NCBI RefSeq assembly: GCF_035917975.1
Contig: NZ_CP109130.1
Coordinates: 3,782,001 to 3,846,000, forward strand
Reading direction: 5' to 3'
Origin: Streptosporangium sp. NBC_01756
GTDB lineage: Bacteria > Actinomycetota > Actinomycetes > Streptosporangiales > Streptosporangiaceae
DNA length: 64,000 bases
Shown: positions 11,196 through 18,319 of the stretch, one piece after another
How the letters are laid out: every line of letters begins with the position of its first letter
How positions within the stretch are numbered: position 1 is the stretch's first letter
The notes under the pieces: generated by a model
The model's input: the letters and a program-made list of their open reading frames with translations, nothing else
Told to the model about the DNA's origin: nothing
Database searches by the model: none
Made by a program: the position numbers and the translations under genes

Positions 11196-11310
11196 GATGA
11201 TCCGACGCGGCGCGCTGCCGTCCCGCACTCCGGCCGTGCGGTGGGCGGATGTTTCCGGCGGCGCCATCCGAGCGACGAGATCATGGACAGGATGTCGACA
11301 TGCGCGCTAA

Positions 11311-11337
11311 GTTATTCTCATAATGAGATTGTCTCAA
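11311..11337 (+). promoter_or_regulatory. Shared promoter/operator element, copy 1 (before the NUDIX regulator gene)
   Basis: GTTATTCTCATAA is followed by TGAGATTGTCTCAA. The core is the palindrome TCTCA-TAA-TGAGA plus a third half-site TCTCA. A nearly identical element is at 14862-14888. CATAAT within the element can serve as -10 with TCGACA 18 bp upstream as -35, so a bound repressor would block RNA polymerase. The NrtR-like protein encoded directly downstream is the obvious candidate binder; that is inference. Confidence 0.75.
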
Positions 11338-11354
11338 GGTTAGAAGGTCATCTG

Positions 11355-12089
11355 GTGGATGAGTCCGAGTTCCTGGCGGGGTACGACCCCCGGGCGTTCC
11401 CCGCGGTCGCGGTGACGGTCGACGTGGTGGCGTTGACCATCCGCGAGGGCGCGCTGCACGTGCTGCTGGTCCGGCGGGGCGAGCAGCCCCATGCGGGGCG
11501 GTGGGCGCTGCCGGGCGGGTTCATCCGGCCGGACGAGGACCTCGCGGAGGCCGCGGTGCGGGAGCTGGCCGAGGAGACCGGGCTCACCCCCCGGGTGCAC
11601 ATCGAACAGCTGGCCAGTTACGGCACACCCGGCCGGGATCCCCGGATGCGGATCGTGTCGGTCTCCTACCTGGCCTTCGCCCCCGACCTGCCGGATCCCC
11701 GTGCGGGTTCGGACGCGGCCGACGCCGCCTGGCACCGGACCGACCGGCTGCCGGAACTGGCGTTCGACCACGGCCGCATCCTCGGCGAGGGACTGGAGCG
11801 GGCGCGGGACAAGCTGGAGTACACCCCGCTGGCCACCACGTTCGTGGGCGAGACGTTCACGATCTCCGAACTGCGCGGCGTCTACGAGACGGTCTGGGGG
11901 GTGCCGCTGCACGCGGGCAACTTCCACCGCAAGATCCTGTCGGTGCCCGGGTTCGTGGAGAGCACCGGGGAGACCACCGAGAGCGGCGGAGCCAGAGGCG
12001 GTCCCCGGGCCAGGATCTACCGGGCCGGAGACGCCCGGCTCCTGCACCCCGCGCTGCTGCGGCCCGCACGCGAGGAGGAGGTGCGATGA
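11355..12089 (+). CDS. NrtR-like regulator: NUDIX domain plus winged helix
   Basis: A protein of 244 residues with an N-terminal NUDIX domain and a C-terminal winged-helix of the NrtR type (TPLATTFVGETFTISELRGVYETVW in pieces, then NFHRKIL). NrtR proteins are repressors that sense ADP-ribose-like nucleotides; family knowledge only. Here the Nudix box is complete (G55, E61, R69-E70, E73-E74, G76), so hydrolase activity may be kept. The GTG start at 11355 is chosen because AGAAGG is 7 bases upstream and the promoter/operator lies just before it; longer frames from 11145 or 11283 would swallow that promoter. It is followed after 45 bp by the J-domain/kinase gene, and a tiny 11-codon frame (12086-12121) overlaps its stop as ATGA. 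Confidence 0.85.
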   Translation: MDESEFLAGYDPRAFPAVAVTVDVVALTIREGALHVLLVRRGEQPHAGRWALPGGFIRPDEDLAEAAVRELAEETGLTPRVHIEQLASYGTPGRDPRMRIVSVSYLAFAPDLPDPRAGSDAADAAWHRTDRLPELAFDHGRILGEGLERARDKLEYTPLATTFVGETFTISELRGVYETVWGVPLHAGNFHRKILSVPGFVESTGETTESGGARGGPRARIYRAGDARLLHPALLRPAREEEVR

Positions 12090-12134
12090 CACCGCACGAA
12101 CCCATGCGGTCCCCGCAGTAAGGAGCGTGGCCCA

Positions 12135-13091
12135 GTGACCACAACGACCGAGGCGATCGCCCTGGTGTCGGCCGCCCGCACACCGGAGGACCTGTTCGGC
12201 GGGGACTCCCCGCACCGGGCCTACCGGCGGCTGGCACGGCTGCTCCACCCCGACCTCGCTCCCGGGCCCGAGGCCGCCGAGGCCTTCGCCAGGCTCGCGG
12301 GGCTGTGGGCGGCGCGGGACCGGAGCATCGAGACGGTGATCACCACCAGGCTGGGGACCTACCGGATCGGAAGGGTGTTCCGGCGGGGCGCCACGGCCGT
12401 GCTGTACGGCAGCGGCGACGACGCGCTGCTCAAGCTCCCGCGCAGCCACCTGGACAACGACCTGATGCGACGCGAGGCGGAGTCGCTCAGGAAGATCGCA
12501 CGGGACGGCGACCCGCTGCTCCTGCCGTACGTGCCCCGGCTGGTGGAGTCGTTCCGGCACCGTTCGGGCGGGGTCGAGCGGCAGGCGAACGTGATCAGCC
12601 GGGCGCCGGACGGATTCGTGAGCCTGGCGGAGATCACGCGGCTGCGACCGGTGCTCGATCCGAGGGACGCGGCGTGGATCTGGCGGCGACTGCTGGTGGC
12701 GATAGGGATGGCCCATCGGGCGGGGGTGGTGCACGGCGCGGTGTTCGGGCAGCACGTGCTGGTCCACCCGGTCGACCACGGCCTGCTGCTCGTCGACTGG
12801 AGCCAGTCGGTCCCGCTCGGGACCCCGCTGACCGCCCTGGTCGCCCGGCATCGGGCCGACTACCCGCCCGAGGTTCTCGCCAGGAGGCCGGCGACCGAAG
12901 CCACCGACATCCAGCTCGCCACCCGCTGCGTGGCCGCTCTCATGGGCGACCGCGCCCCCGTCCCGATCCGCCGTTTCGTCCGGGGAAGTCTGACGCATCC
13001 GCCGCGTGACGCCTGGTGCCTCCTCGGCGAGCTCGACGATCTGCTCGACGACCTGTACGGCCCGCGGAAATACCGGCCCCTGCACCTGTGA
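12135..13091 (+). CDS. J-domain fused to a protein-kinase-like domain (probable pseudokinase)
   Basis: A protein of 318 residues. Residues 15-65 look like a J domain with H38-P39-D40 in RRLARLLHPD, the motif that stimulates Hsp70. From residue 74 a kinase fold follows: a degenerate glycine loop (RRGATA), K100 as the ATP lysine, and E114 or E116 in helix C. In the catalytic loop, HRD-K-N is replaced by HGAVFGQH (200-207), so the catalytic Asp and the Asn are missing; D221 (VDW) remains in place of DFG. It is therefore probably a nucleotide-binding scaffold rather than an active kinase. GTG 12135 has AAGGAG upstream. It is likely cotranscribed with the NUDIX regulator. Its pairing with a vWA protein and PurA-like enzyme suggests a stress-response module. 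Confidence 0.75.
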   Translation: MTTTTEAIALVSAARTPEDLFGGDSPHRAYRRLARLLHPDLAPGPEAAEAFARLAGLWAARDRSIETVITTRLGTYRIGRVFRRGATAVLYGSGDDALLKLPRSHLDNDLMRREAESLRKIARDGDPLLLPYVPRLVESFRHRSGGVERQANVISRAPDGFVSLAEITRLRPVLDPRDAAWIWRRLLVAIGMAHRAGVVHGAVFGQHVLVHPVDHGLLLVDWSQSVPLGTPLTALVARHRADYPPEVLARRPATEATDIQLATRCVAALMGDRAPVPIRRFVRGSLTHPPRDAWCLLGELDDLLDDLYGPRKYRPLHL

Positions 13092-13104
13092 GCCGTACCG
13101 GGCC

Positions 13105-14013
13105 CTATGCCTCGTCGCGCAGGGAGGCGACGAGGTCGAGGGTCCGTGCCTGTTCCGCATCGGTGCCGACCGGGCTGACCAGCAGCTCCGTCGTTCCGGC
13201 TCCGGCATACCGCCGGATCGCCCGTGCCACGACGGCCTCGTCTCCCGCGATGACCGTCTCGTGCACCCCGGACAGGCCCTGACGGTCCAGCATGGTCTGG
13301 TAGCTGGAGAACTGGGAGGCGAATCCCAGCTGTCCGGCCACCTGCTCTCTGACGGCGTCAGGGTCGGCGGTGACGCTCACCATGGCCGTCGCCACGATCC
13401 GGGGAGCGGGCCGTCCCGCCTGCGAGGCGGCGCGGGTGATCGTCGGTTCGATGTGGTCGGCGATGGCCTCCGGGCCCGTCCACACGGTCACCGTGCCGTC
13501 GGCGAGCTCACCGGCGACGCGCAGCATGACCGGTCCGAGGGCGGAGACCAGCACGGAGGGTGCCTCGGTGCCGGGTGCGTCGACCTGGCCCGTGACGGCG
13601 AGGGTCTCCCCCCGGTACTCGACGTGCTCACCGCGGAGCAGGGGTCGCAGCGCCGACAGATACTCCCGGATGTGCCGGGCCGGCCGGTCGTAGGAGAGGC
13701 CGAACTGTCCCTCGATGATCTGCTGATGGCTCGGCCCGACGCCCAGGGTGAGCCGGTTGCCGCTCGCCGCCTGGGCGGTGAGCGCCTGCCCGGCCAGCGC
13801 GAGCGGGTGCCGGGGGTAGGTCTGCACGATCGCCGTCCCCAGCTCGATGCCGGGCACCTGCTGCGCGCTGAGCGCCACCACGGTGAGCGCGTCCCATGAG
13901 GTGAGCTGGGAGAAGAAGGCGCTGTCGAGTCCGGCCTCCGCCGCCGTGCGCACCCGCCCCACCAAGGCGTCCAGGCCGGGCCCGGCGGCGTGGATGTACA
14001 GACCTGTCTTCAC
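13105..14013 (-). CDS. LLM-class F420-dependent oxidoreductase
   Basis: A luciferase-like monooxygenase-fold (TIM barrel) protein of 302 residues. The N-terminus MKTGLYI, the AQAASGNRLTLGVGPSHQ segment and the RHIREYLSAL region match the actinobacterial F420-dependent LLM group, in which cofactor F420 is used for hydride transfer. The substrate is unknown. The gene ends 13 bp from the convergent J-domain/kinase gene. It is divergent from a TetR gene, which is the expected local regulator; two direct repeats in the shared gap could be its sites. Confidence 0.87.
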   Translation of the reverse strand: MKTGLYIHAAGPGLDALVGRVRTAAEAGLDSAFFSQLTSWDALTVVALSAQQVPGIELGTAIVQTYPRHPLALAGQALTAQAASGNRLTLGVGPSHQQIIEGQFGLSYDRPARHIREYLSALRPLLRGEHVEYRGETLAVTGQVDAPGTEAPSVLVSALGPVMLRVAGELADGTVTVWTGPEAIADHIEPTITRAASQAGRPAPRIVATAMVSVTADPDAVREQVAGQLGFASQFSSYQTMLDRQGLSGVHETVIAGDEAVVARAIRRYAGAGTTELLVSPVGTDAEQARTLDLVASLRDEA

Positions 14014-14026
14014 TGGCCCTCCAAAG

Positions 14027-14088
14027 TGAATCGGATCCTCCGCTTCCGCTATGCCACGTTACACTAATCTGAATCTGTGGTTCCGCTT
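14027..14088. promoter_or_regulatory. Direct-repeat operator candidates in the LLM/TetR gap
   Basis: TGAATC-6 bp-TCCGCTT occurs at 14027-14045 and again at 14070-14088 in the 103-bp gap between the divergent oxidoreductase and TetR genes. Spacing start to start is 43 bp. Direct rather than inverted symmetry is unusual for TetR, so they may be two weak sites or chance. Confidence 0.45.
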
Positions 14089-14116
14089 GCTGGCATCCAT
14101 TCGGAGAGAGGTCACC

Positions 14117-14638
14117 GTGCGCGCCGACGCGCGACGTAACCGCGAACTCATCGTCACCACGGCGATCGGCCTGTTCACCGAGGCCGGACCGGGCGTGTCG
14201 ATGGAGGAGATCGCCCGTGCGGCCGACCTCGGCGTCGGCACGCTTTATCGCCACTTTCCCGATCGGCAGGCGTTGCTGGAGGCCATCGCCCTCGAAGCGC
14301 TGGATCGGCTCCGGACGCTCATCCGGGCGGCCGTCGCACAGGACGTACCGCGATGGCAGGCTCTCGGCAGGGTCGTCGAACACTGCGTCGAACAGCCCCT
14401 GGCGTTGATCAAGTCACTGTCGCCCGCCACACCGGCCGACCCCCGGCGCGGGGACCTGGAACGTGAGGTCAACGACCTGATCGAACAGCTTCTGGAACAG
14501 GCCCGCGAAGAGGGGACGCTGCGCCCCGACATCCCACCGCGCGAGGTCCTCGGCCTGCTCAACGTGGCCATCTGCCGTCCGGGAGCGCGTGCCGACGACC
14601 ATCTGATCACGGTGATACTCGACGGCCTCAGGCGCTGA
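14117..14638 (+). CDS. TetR-family transcriptional regulator
   Basis: A protein of 173 residues. The helix-turn-helix is RADARRNRELIVTTAI, then VSMEEIARAADLGVGTLYRHF (in two stretches), which is canonical for TetR. The ligand-binding part after residue 60 is short (about 110 residues). GTG 14117 is preferred because GGAGAGAG precedes it and the longer frame would run into the shared promoter. It probably controls the divergent F420-dependent oxidoreductase gene and itself. The gene is followed by a 30-bp minisatellite. Confidence 0.87.
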   Translation: MRADARRNRELIVTTAIGLFTEAGPGVSMEEIARAADLGVGTLYRHFPDRQALLEAIALEALDRLRTLIRAAVAQDVPRWQALGRVVEHCVEQPLALIKSLSPATPADPRRGDLEREVNDLIEQLLEQAREEGTLRPDIPPREVLGLLNVAICRPGARADDHLITVILDGLRR

Positions 14639-14671
14639 GCCCGCGAGGTTCCGACGACCGCCGCGCCCGCC

Positions 14672-14830
14672 CTCGCGGACGCGAGCACCCCACCTCCGAC
14701 TCTCAGGGGCGCGAGCTGCTCCGCCCCTCACCCTCACGGGCGCGAGCACTCCACTCGCCGCTCTCATAGGTGTGAGCACCTCACCCCCGTCCTCGCAGAC
14801 GCGCACACTCCACCCCAGCCCTCATAAGCG
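14672..14830. repeat. Degenerate minisatellite of about 30-bp units, 5 to 6 copies
   Basis: Units beginning CTCRYRGRCGCGAGCAC and ending with C-rich CCACCCC stretches recur about every 30 bp from 14672 to 14830, with 20-30% divergence. The array begins about 30 bp after the TetR stop and ends just before the promoter of the vWA gene. No frame through it looks coding. Confidence 0.75.
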
Positions 14831-14861
14831 GAAATGTCTTAGTGGGTTGACGCGGGCCGTT

Positions 14862-14888
14862 GTTATTCTCATACTGAGAACATCTCAA
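14862..14888 (+). promoter_or_regulatory. Shared promoter/operator element, copy 2 (before the vWA gene)
   Basis: GTTATTCTCATAC followed by TGAGAACATCTCAA, identical to copy 1 (11311-11337) except for four bases at the centre and in the spacer. A good -35 TTGACG (14848-14853) lies 17 bp before CATACT as -10, which is inside the element. The same three half-sites (TCTCA, TGAGA, TCTCA) are kept. Confidence 0.75.
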
Positions 14889-14954
14889 CCTAAGAACAAC
14901 TTGTGGTGAACGGGTCCGGCCCGCCGGGTCCCGCCACCGATGTCAGGAGACCCC

Positions 14955-15911
14955 ATGGGAAGCGGAAACTGGTCCACCGACGTCTACGCGGCCGCCGCGA
15001 GCTACCGCGCGGCGAAGGGCACCAGCGCCTTCGCCTACAGCGACAGCGGCGCGCGCACCGTGCACGACGATCTCAACCCGTACGGCGTGCCGGCCCGGGA
15101 GAGCCGCGACTCGGCCGAGCACCCCGCCACCGTGGCCGTCGCCGTCCTGTTCGACGTGACCGGCTCGATGCGCGGGGTGCCCCGCACGCTCCAGGCGAAG
15201 CTGCCCGACCTGCTCGGCCTGCTGCTCCGCAAGGGCTACGCGACCGACCCGCAGGTCCTCTTCGGCGCGATCGGCGACGCCACCTGCGACCGGGCTCCAC
15301 TGCAGATCGGGCAGTTCGAGTCTGACAACCGGATGGACGAGGATCTCGGCAGAGTCCTGCTGGAAGGCGGGGGCGGCGGCCAGAAGAGCGAGTCGTACGA
15401 GCTGGCGATGTACTTCATGGCCCGGCACACCACGCTCGACTGCTTCGAGAAGCGGGGACGCCGGGGCTACCTGTTCATCATCGGCGACGAACTGCCTTAC
15501 CCGAAGGTCAAGCGCCGCGAGGTCGGCAAGGTCATCGGCGACAGACTGGGGCGGGACATCGCGATCAAGGACATCGTCGCCGAGCTGACCAGGAAGTACG
15601 ACGTCTACTACATCCTCCCCGCCGGAGCGAGCTATGCCGGAGATCGCCAGGTGCTGGATGCCTGGCGCGACCTGCTCGGCCAGAACGTGCTGGAACTGGA
15701 CGACCTGAACGCCGTCTGCGAGACGATCGCACTCACCGTCGGCCTCGGCGAGGACGCCATCAGCCTGGACGAGGGGCTGAGCGACCTCGACGAGCTCGGC
15801 TCGTCCGCCGGGACCACCGTGGGCAAGGCCCTGGCCAGGCTGGACCGGGACACGTTGGTGGTGGCCGAGGGGCTCGACCTCGGCGGCGACAGCGGCGTGG
15901 TCCGGCTGTGA
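14955..15911 (+). CDS. vWA-domain protein
   Basis: A protein of 318 residues with a von Willebrand A fold. Residues 61-75 (AVAVLFDVTGSMRG) carry a MIDAS-like D67-x-T69-G-S71 instead of DxSxS; later strands include VLFGAIGDATCD and GYLFIIGDELP. The C-terminal quarter is Gly/Asp/Leu-rich without a known domain. Such cytoplasmic vWA proteins often occur in tellurite-type stress gene clusters and metal-dependent scaffold systems; the role here is unknown. ATG 14955 is chosen because AGGAG is 6-7 bases upstream, rather than ATG 14940. It is followed after 90 bp by the PurA-like gene and is driven by operator copy 2. Confidence 0.8.
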   Translation: MGSGNWSTDVYAAAASYRAAKGTSAFAYSDSGARTVHDDLNPYGVPARESRDSAEHPATVAVAVLFDVTGSMRGVPRTLQAKLPDLLGLLLRKGYATDPQVLFGAIGDATCDRAPLQIGQFESDNRMDEDLGRVLLEGGGGGQKSESYELAMYFMARHTTLDCFEKRGRRGYLFIIGDELPYPKVKRREVGKVIGDRLGRDIAIKDIVAELTRKYDVYYILPAGASYAGDRQVLDAWRDLLGQNVLELDDLNAVCETIALTVGLGEDAISLDEGLSDLDELGSSAGTTVGKALARLDRDTLVVAEGLDLGGDSGVVRL

Positions 15912-16001
15912 ATCGCACGGCCACCGGCAGAGGGGCGACGCCCCGGGGGCGCTCCTCGCACCCGCGCGTCCCACAGACCCGCACCGGAGACGGGGCCTCG
16001 C

Positions 16002-17216
16002 ATGGGTGAGCACGTGATCGTGACCGACCTCGGGTACGGCGACGCAGGCAAGGGCACGGTCGTGGACTGGCTCTGTGCCCAGGGGCCCGTCCAGGCGGTC
16101 GTCAGGTTCAACGGGGGCGCTCAGGCGGCGCACAACGTCGTCCTGCCCGACGGGCGGCACCACACGTTCGCCCAGTTCGGGTCCGGGACGCTTCGGGGCG
16201 TCCCGACGCACCTGTCCCGGTTCATGGTGGTGGACCCGCTCGCTCTCGCCTCGGAGGCCGCGCACCTGACCGCGCTGGGGGTCCCCGACCCGTTCGGGCT
16301 GCTCACCGTGGACCGGGACGCGCTTCTCGCCACGCCTTACCACGTCGCGGCAGGACGGGCGCGGGAGTTGGCGCGGGGTGCGGGCCGGCACGGGTCGTGC
16401 GGGATGGGTGTTGGCGAGACCATGTCCTACGCCCTGGAGCATCCGGGTCTCGGGCCGACCGCCGGCGACTGCGAGAACCCGGCGCTGCTCACCCGGAAAC
16501 TGCACGCGCTCCGGGAGGCGCTGGGGGTGGCCGGACCGCCGGTGGAGGACTGTGTCGCGACCTTTCGGGCGTTCGCGGAGCGGGTGATCCTGGTGGACTC
16601 CTCGTTCACGAAGGCTCTGCTGCGGGGGCACCCGGTGGTCTTCGAGGGGGCACAGGGAGTGCTGCTCGACGAGTGGCACGGCTTCCACCCCTACACGACG
16701 TGGAGCACGACGACCTTCGCCAACGCGCTGGCCCTGCTCGACGGGGTGCCGGCCGTACGGCTGGGCGTGCTGCGCACCTTCACCCCCCGGCACGGGCCCG
16801 GCCCGCTGGTCACCGAGGATGCGGCGCTGGGAACGGCCGAGGCCCACAATATGGCCGGTCCGTGGCAGGGCCCCTTCCGCGCCGGCCACTTCGACGCGGT
16901 GGCCCACCGCTACGCGCTGGCGGTCGCGGGCGGGGCCGACGCGCTCGCGCTCACCCATCTGGACGCGCCGGTGTCGCGGATGTGCGTCTCCTACGACACC
17001 GGCGAACTCCCGGTGGGCACGGCGGGCGACCTCGACGGGCAGACCCGGCTGACCCGACGGGTGCTCCGGGCCCGTCCCCGCTACGCCGACGGCGTCGACG
17101 ACTGGCCCGCCGCCGTCGCCGACGCCCTCAACGTCCCGGTATGGCTGGGCTCGGCCGGCCCCACCGCCATGGACAAGATCCGACTGAGTGACGCGATCGC
17201 CCTTGAGAGGGTGTGA
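16002..17216 (+). CDS. Divergent adenylosuccinate-synthetase (PurA) homologue
   Basis: A GTP-dependent ligase fold of 404 residues, shorter than housekeeping PurA (about 427-430). The GTP loop GYGDAGKG keeps the catalytic Asp14, and GGAQAAHNVV keeps His44, so phosphoryl transfer chemistry should work. Several IMP/aspartate loops differ from canonical PurA: HGSCGMGVGETMSYA in place of the GTTKKGIGPAY-like region, FEGAQGVLLDEWHGFHPYTT instead of the LDIDHGTYPFVTSS type, and WQGPFRAGHFD instead of TGRPRRxGWFD. The protein is thus likely to act on another nucleotide or acceptor than IMP plus Asp. It lies with the vWA gene and not with the purine genes of this window. Confidence 0.8.
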   Translation: MGEHVIVTDLGYGDAGKGTVVDWLCAQGPVQAVVRFNGGAQAAHNVVLPDGRHHTFAQFGSGTLRGVPTHLSRFMVVDPLALASEAAHLTALGVPDPFGLLTVDRDALLATPYHVAAGRARELARGAGRHGSCGMGVGETMSYALEHPGLGPTAGDCENPALLTRKLHALREALGVAGPPVEDCVATFRAFAERVILVDSSFTKALLRGHPVVFEGAQGVLLDEWHGFHPYTTWSTTTFANALALLDGVPAVRLGVLRTFTPRHGPGPLVTEDAALGTAEAHNMAGPWQGPFRAGHFDAVAHRYALAVAGGADALALTHLDAPVSRMCVSYDTGELPVGTAGDLDGQTRLTRRVLRARPRYADGVDDWPAAVADALNVPVWLGSAGPTAMDKIRLSDAIALERV

Positions 17217-18052: not shown

Positions 18053-18319
18053 ATGAAAACCAAGACTGCTGCCTCGTTCATCGCGAGCATGATGAGCGCG
18101 GGGCTGCTCGCCGGAGCACTCGCCGCAGGTCCCGCACAGGCATCGGTCACCGTGGCCTCACCCCCCGCCGTCCAGACCGCCACCACGGCCACGGGGTTCC
18201 TCACCGGCTGCGGCGGCTGCTGGAGACGGCGCTGCTGCTGTCGCTGTCATCGCTGCTGCGGATGCGGCGGCGGATGCGGCGGCGGGGGTTGGGGCGGCTG
18301 GGGTGGTGACTGGTGGTGA
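18053..18319 (+). CDS. Small secreted Cys/Gly/Trp-rich protein
   Basis: A protein of 88 residues. Residues 1-30 are a clear Sec signal peptide ending AQA before Ser31. After a short Thr/Ala/Pro linker, the last 38 residues hold ten Cys (53, 56, 61-63, 65, 68, 69, 71, 75), a basic stretch around 58-67 and five Trp (57, 80, 83, 87, 88) in a Gly-rich end finishing DWW. GGAGG lies 6 bases before the ATG. No known family is recognised. It could be a disulfide-rich or metal-binding surface peptide or an antimicrobial. Its tail resembles the 32-residue peptide encoded at 20574-20672, including Gly-Cys pairs, an Arg run and a Trp-Trp end. The gene is alone, with a GC-rich hairpin behind it. Confidence 0.8.
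   Translation: MKTKTAASFIASMMSAGLLAGALAAGPAQASVTVASPPAVQTATTATGFLTGCGGCWRRRCCCRCHRCCGCGGGCGGGGWGGWGGDWW

Follow-up and report, generated by a model that had tools for sequence, protein, structure and literature searches.

Among the NUDIX-type repressors described so far, the NrtR protein of Mycobacterium smegmatis (MsNrtR) has lost both its Nudix box and its hydrolase activity (PMC6800001), and the wiring closest to that of the locus studied here is that of conflict operons predicted to be under NUDIX repression and to include a vWA chaperone (PMC9503650). In this work we analyzed 64,000 nucleotides of the soil bacterium Streptosporangium sp. NBC_01756 (NZ_CP109130.1, positions 3,782,001 to 3,846,000; hereinafter the window), which contain genes for a NUDIX/NrtR-like regulator, a J-domain pseudokinase, a vWA protein with a metal ion-dependent adhesion site (MIDAS) and a PurA-like ligase. 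Domain matches, residues and fold agree with the assignments of all four proteins in a first-pass annotation of this DNA. What that annotation had missed is that phages carry the kinase, vWA and PurA-like genes together; this triad is constant, while the regulator and operator vary between contexts.

A 26-base element, TTATTCTCATANTGAGANNNTCTCAA, is present in the window without mismatches at 11312-11337 and 14863-14888, where none is expected by chance (100 shuffles of the window). Throughout the genome (9,002,924 bases), this core occurs only at those two places even if up to three mismatches are allowed. Read with its flank, TTCTCAnnnTGAGAnnnTCTCAnnnTGAGAA, the element consists of two tandem 13-bp palindromes with centres 16 bp apart. 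An element shared by both operons and lying over both -10 boxes had already been proposed in the first-pass annotation, and both copies do overlap the -10 of a sigma-70-like promoter; the three half-sites given there have to be replaced by four per operator, the fourth being degenerate in the window (TTAGAA, TAAGAA). A looser 22-mer, TTCTCANNNTGAGANNNTCTCA, gave 17 genome matches with up to three mismatches, five of them being the two sites or their self-overlaps. The regulon is probably made up of these two promoters, though not certainly, because 12 weak matches remain outside the locus, compared with seven for the backward control, and a few further targets may exist. The best operator-like site outside the locus has two mismatches and lies at genome position 8281817.

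To follow the operator across relatives, we scored the matching positions out of 22, with at least 17 as the main threshold and at least 15 as a laxer one. A scan of a species-genome collection with the vWA protein yielded 376 confirmed relatives, the best 80 of which were kept, all of them actinobacterial. An operator scoring at least 15 was found in the 200 bp preceding the regulator in 74/78 loci. Of 7316 windows drawn at random from the same loci, 12 reached this score, and some of these 12 are perhaps true second copies. The set was enlarged by 12 more loci and the window to 93 loci, not deduplicated by species, of which 91 had a readable region upstream of the regulator; here 86/91 scored at least 17 and 89/91 at least 15. 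Thus, the absence of the element from relatives that keep the genes, named in the first-pass annotation as a finding that would refute it, was not observed. In 89 loci the -10 of the best promoter-like pair begins close to the operator: 7 bp ahead of it in 40 loci, 4 bp into its sequence in 21, and at other nearby positions in the rest. Among the non-actinobacterial, plasmid and phage loci, where the regulator or its context differs, scores of 17 were sporadic and did not stand in front of the operon (L087, L088, L159). Regulation through the operator is thus well supported, with binding of the regulator suggested by position and conservation.

The same annotation had described a split regulon. 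One operator type at two promoters is indeed present, while the operon is normally undivided and its split here a local, derived condition. Regulator, vWA and PurA-like matches lie on one strand in all 80 actinobacterial loci, and in 76/80 they follow the order regulator, J-domain pseudokinase, vWA, PurA-like. In the window, a pair of genes for a luciferase-like monooxygenase and a TetR regulator sits between the kinase and vWA genes, and the second operator precedes the vWA gene. The closest relative (L092; vWA protein 93% identical) has no match to the inserted pair, yet it contains the second operator in a gap of 271 bp. In total, seven loci including the window have an operator scoring at least 17 before the vWA gene, and there the kinase and vWA genes are 164-1863 bp apart; this gap is at most 199 bp in the 78 loci that lack such an operator. 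In L021, whose regulator and kinase genes are separated, the best operator site is found before the kinase, the sole locus of this kind. Operator copies are therefore placed at operon breakpoints, as selection for co-regulation predicts.

The vWA gene was detected in 22/100 relatives (own genome counted), including 14/16 of the genus. A phylum-wide search was positive in at least 4 of 396 genomes, own genome counted, a low bound since five candidates were scored per genome and genomes were sampled thinly.

In the regulator, whose coding sequence probably starts with the GTG at 11355, both the NUDIX domain and the NrtR winged helix score above the Pfam cut-offs, and its best structural matches in the PDB are AraR and NrtR. 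Of 99 alignment rows, 71 have an intact strict Nudix box, that of the window among them; several of the misses are due to a loop insertion, and the box is lost in all five plasmid rows. The score against the NCBIfam NtrR model was 122.8 bits, compared with a cut-off of 400, and a Pfam scan revealed no nad genes in the operon.

Pfam recognizes in the second protein a Kdo-type kinase and, below the cut-off (19.4 vs 27.8), a DnaJ domain. Its alignment of 164 rows, near-duplicates included, has the HPD motif in most of them (H in 152, P in 154, D in 156), the catalytic Asp of the HRD loop in none (0/164), and Asp at the position of the DFG Asp in 111/164. The vWA protein has no Pfam match. Its open reading frame opens at 14940, and the likely start is at 14955, where a conserved Met-Gly (M6-G7) begins. 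In 67 rows the MIDAS residues D72, T74 and D183 are invariant and S76 is kept in at least 90%; the best PDB matches of the predicted structure are integrin-type vWA/I domains. PADLOC gave weak partial matches of the kinase (MkoA, 1.4e-8; PD-T4-6, 6.8e-5) and of the NUDIX protein (PDC-S07, 6.7e-9), none for the vWA or PurA-like proteins; none of the four corresponds to a protein of a listed defence system.

The PurA-like protein is above the cut-off of the broad Pfam family Adenylsucc_synt, but remains far below those of the NCBIfam PurA models (132 and 107.4 bits; cut-offs 402 and 395.55) and of the PurZ model (26.4 bits; cut-off 300). Its structural model fits best to E. coli PurA with hadacidin (E 5.4e-33), with PurZ entries lower, from 1.2e-18. 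Positions were read with the residue roles that, R303 apart, we take to hold for E. coli (Ec) PurA. The catalytic and GTP-site residues D14, K17, H44, Q218, T233 and D321 are present in all 73 rows of the family alignment, as are Q41, R258, R263, H264, N283 and R293. Ec R143 is kept in only 5/73 rows, and the aspartate loop is replaced, with Gly in 66/73 rows at the position that we read as Ec R303, a residue whose role in PurA is described in PMC8342488. The genome contains a second, ordinary-looking PurA-type gene 0.76 Mb away (35% identical), and two congeners without the vWA gene have only a match of the ordinary PurA type. Judging from this residue pattern, the enzyme has probably changed its substrate.

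Search of 50,697 phage records by tblastn revealed the vWA protein in 207 records and the kinase in 191, of which 188 and 189, respectively, are named Mycobacterium phage. The PurA-like protein was matched in 223 (189 Mycobacterium phage), the weaker of which may be ordinary PurA; the regulator gave 26 matches, none of them in a Mycobacterium phage. Bixzunavirus mycobacteriophages other than Pinkcreek presumably belong to cluster C. In two Bixzunavirus phages inspected, the kinase, vWA and PurA-like genes follow in this order, with a polynucleotide kinase gene upstream. For Pinkcreek, a member of Bixzunavirus, the assignment to cluster C is published (PMC9476963). In Rhizobium and Vibrio phages (one of each inspected) the vWA gene adjoins the PurA-like gene and no kinase match was found.

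From IMG/VR we obtained 421 vWA relatives, cultured phages among them, and kept 80. All three triad genes were found in 67/80 of these loci, some of the misses being due to contig ends, and regulator matches in only three (L119, L124, L141). Some of these contigs may be non-viral; in particular, L177 and a Variovorax plasmid locus (L089) encode identical vWA proteins. Neighbours were clustered from open reading frames of at least 80 aa on the plus strand within 6 kb of the vWA gene in 72 loci, after eight near-duplicates had been dropped, and domains were named from one scanned representative per cluster. The PurA-like gene was nearby in 69/72 loci and the kinase in 63/72, followed by a DNA-ligase domain (15), R2K ATP-grasp (15) and HAD_SAK (11), which points weakly to repair of nucleic acids or translation. 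A vWA tree was built by a quick method from 150 of 182 matches (excluding eight near-duplicates and 24 actinobacterial loci; the label 'act' of phage L003 is wrong), with support from the Shimodaira-Hasegawa-like approximate likelihood ratio test only and midpoint rooting. In this tree, which has long branches, viral lineages lie around and within actinobacterial ones; no direction of transfer is drawn from it.

Plasmids differ in their regulators. In Rhodococcus and Tsukamurella plasmids a NUDIX gene lies after the triad, in those of Agrobacterium vitis, R. leguminosarum and Acetobacter a divergent one precedes it, and a Variovorax plasmid contains the triad without any NUDIX gene. Directly 5' of the kinase, the Rhodococcus and Tsukamurella loci have a palindrome of 23 or 25 bp, namely GTTTTAGTC-N5-GACTAAAAC and ATTTCTAGT-N7-ACTAGAAAT in L084 and L085, which are possible operators of another type of NUDIX regulator. 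No convincing palindrome was revealed in the three alphaproteobacterial plasmid loci. In Agrobacterium vitis (L086, 9325-14720) the triad is followed by genes for a MoxR-like AAA ATPase, DUF5682 and DUF4132.

Table 1. Features of the locus, in window coordinates (pLDDT, predicted local distance difference test).
Feature	Position	Strand	Basis
Promoter, regulator operon	11295..11324	+	-35 TCGACA 11295-11300, 18 bp, -10 CATAAT 11319-11324; consensus match only, by eye
Operator 1, two tandem palindromes	11315..11345	+	21/22 consensus positions; kept 5' of regulator in relatives
NUDIX/NrtR-like transcription regulator, 244 aa	11355..12089	+	PF00293 7.7e-23, NrtR_WHD 3.5e-12
J-domain pseudokinase, 318 aa	12135..13091	+	HPD at 38-40; phrog_3043 1.6e-39
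Inserted pair: luciferase-like monooxygenase 13105-14013 (-), TetR regulator 14051-14638 (+)	13105..14638	.	Pfam; outside module
Promoter, second half	14847..14875	+	-35 TTGACG 14847-14852, 17 bp, -10 CATACT 14870-14875; consensus match only, by eye
Operator 2	14866..14896	+	Genome scan and operator scoring across loci
vWA protein with MIDAS residues	14955..15911	+	phrog_2971 5.4e-68; alignment; model pLDDT 87.7; vWA fold
PurA-like ligase, 404 aa	16002..17216	+	Adenylsucc_synt 1.2e-51; phrog_1211 8.3e-72; model pLDDT 96.3

Several neighbouring genes should also be mentioned. The luciferase-like/TetR pair also adjoins the operon in L014 (8403-9908), between kinase and vWA genes, and in L008 (7084-8159) it lies upstream of the regulator, with a luciferase-like match of no more than 100 aa; the pair may move as a unit. 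In four streptomycete loci (L039, L059, L060, L083) a second NUDIX match lies directly 3' of the PurA-like gene, and in L059 and L083 Pfam assigns to it a NUDIX domain but no winged helix. A small Cys/Gly-rich protein with a signal-like N-terminus is encoded at 18053-18319 of the window, and similar open reading frames are present in L092, L004 and L005.

On balance, and with confidence slightly better than even, we propose that the locus is a NUDIX-repressed module in which the ligase couples an oxo-purine substrate to an amine that is not aspartate, the vWA protein and pseudokinase acting as an adaptor; its regulation is well supported, whereas the chemistry is what we infer from the residues. 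The NUDIX/NrtR-like protein would repress its own operon and the detached half by binding the two tandem palindromes over the -10. As the family suggests, a nucleotide acting as ligand, most probably ADP-ribose or a related compound, would release it from them. The intact Nudix box could hydrolyse this ligand and so reset the switch. The residues kept in the PurA-like enzyme are consistent with the use of GTP to activate an oxo-purine-like group, which would then be joined to the amine. The MIDAS vWA protein and the J-domain pseudokinase may serve as adaptor and Hsp70 recruiter, bringing to the ligase a substrate that is perhaps a protein or ribonucleoprotein. Since many phages have the triad without the switch, it probably has a part in phage-host conflict, or in repairing or modifying the machinery of nucleic acids or translation.

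A number of observations weigh against this proposal. The kinase match was not found in L027, L047, L062 and L065 among the 80 actinobacterial loci, and 9/72 deduplicated IMG/VR loci have no kinase nearby; the kinase is therefore not always needed. In five loci the operator scores below 17 (L004, L005 and L026, 16; L060, 14; L021, 13). Arg occupies the position read as Ec R303 in 3/73 rows, and this reading of the loop residues is our own, from an HMMER alignment that places the aspartate loop with a one-residue gap. The roles suggested for the pseudokinase and vWA protein come from fold and motif, and RNA-repair-like neighbours accompany only 11 to 15 of the 72 viral loci.

It could also be supposed that the operon serves nucleotide metabolism, with a variant PurA/PurZ making succino-(2-amino)adenylate for altered phage DNA bases and for host salvage. 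The PurA fold, the structural matches to PurA and PurZ and the name of the PHROGs family, '2-aminooxy adenylosuccinate synthetase', would fit such an enzyme, but we consider it unlikely in view of the low scores against both sets of models and of the aspartate-loop tip, which is strictly conserved in PurZ (PMC8342488) and not kept here. In addition, the family keeps Asp where S-2L PurZ has Ser, an equivalence that we read from PMC8342488, and the vWA protein and J-domain pseudokinase would be left unexplained. Identity with PurZ itself is ruled out by the PurZ model score and the residue pattern. The regulator class and vWA chaperone recall instead the NUDIX- or WYL-repressed glycohydrolase operons predicted to counter viral ADP-ribosylation (PMC9503650, section 3.8). 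A host operon of this kind is quite unlikely here: Pfam finds no ADP-ribosylglycohydrolase, phosphatase, Macro or NADAR domain in the four proteins, and the triad is present in phages too.

A Ter-like stress system making a nucleoside-like signal would be in line with a Rhizobium phage (L087, 890-3226) in which genes for a HAD hydrolase, PRTase_3 and a NUDIX protein lie a few kb before the vWA and PurA-like genes, as in the Ter systems of PMC7824862. The HAD and PRTase genes were, however, looked for and seen in this one phage, and neither the four module proteins nor the inserted pair gave a match to TerB, TerC or TerD. The tellurite-type neighbourhood mentioned in the first-pass annotation likewise finds no counterpart in these proteins in the Pfam scan, which did not extend to the wider neighbourhood, and we regard a Ter-like function as very improbable. 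An ordinary NAD-homeostasis regulon would account for the NUDIX domain and the NrtR winged helix, but is hardly credible: the NtrR model score is low, and the Nudix box is intact where MsNrtR has lost it (PMC6800001). We reject it because the operon has no nad genes and the genome no further strong operator.

Returning to the NUDIX-repressed ligase module, it can be hypothesized, tentatively and with considerable doubt, that bacteria and large phages share a hitherto unrecognized system built around an enzyme of PurA descent. This enzyme would link an amine that is not aspartate, and that may be free or part of a protein or RNA, to a purine activated by GTP, with delivery by the vWA protein and J-domain pseudokinase; hosts would turn the system on through a nucleotide-sensing NUDIX repressor, which phages lack. 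The triad recurs in mycobacteriophages, many uncultured viral contigs, actinobacteria and proteobacteria, and the inspected records annotate its genes singly, partly as hypothetical or as purine synthesis. The operator indicates the conditions under which hosts call for the module, the substrate becomes a concrete question through the residue pattern of the enzyme, and phages of the Bixzunavirus type make the module testable in M. smegmatis mc2 155, a standard laboratory host. Full-text literature searches yielded no description of a PurA-like protein combined with a J-domain pseudokinase and a vWA protein, though the Ter or RNA-repair literature may hold one.

Comparison with known systems revealed that: (i) the regulator resembles NrtR-family repressors (M. 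smegmatis NrtR, PMC6800001; Bacteroides AraR, PDB 5bs6) in its NUDIX domain and NrtR winged helix and in the placement of a putative operator at its own promoter, but differs from them in its intact Nudix box, in the lack of NAD or sugar genes in the operon and in its tandem operator, TCTCAnnnTGAGA, as compared with the 23-bp palindrome GTTTTCGA-N7-TCGAAAAC of mycobacterial NrtR (PMC6800001); (ii) the ligase shares with PurA and PurZ the fold, the GTP site and the catalytic Asp and His, while the aspartate loop and nucleotide-phosphate residues are not kept, Q41 and H264 are specific to its family, and its gene lies beside those of a vWA protein and a pseudokinase; (iii) the Bixzunavirus mycobacteriophages Mangeria, Tonenili and Pinkcreek have the same three families in the same order, annotated singly as kinase, hypothetical and PurA-like, and in them neither a NUDIX regulator nor the operator was found. 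The predicted NUDIX/WYL-repressed ADP-ribosylglycohydrolase operons (PMC9503650, section 3.8) have in common with the window a NUDIX repressor, a vWA chaperone and a nucleotide-related enzyme; here a PurA-like protein and a J-domain pseudokinase replace the glycohydrolase and phosphatases, and the triad is carried by phages as well.

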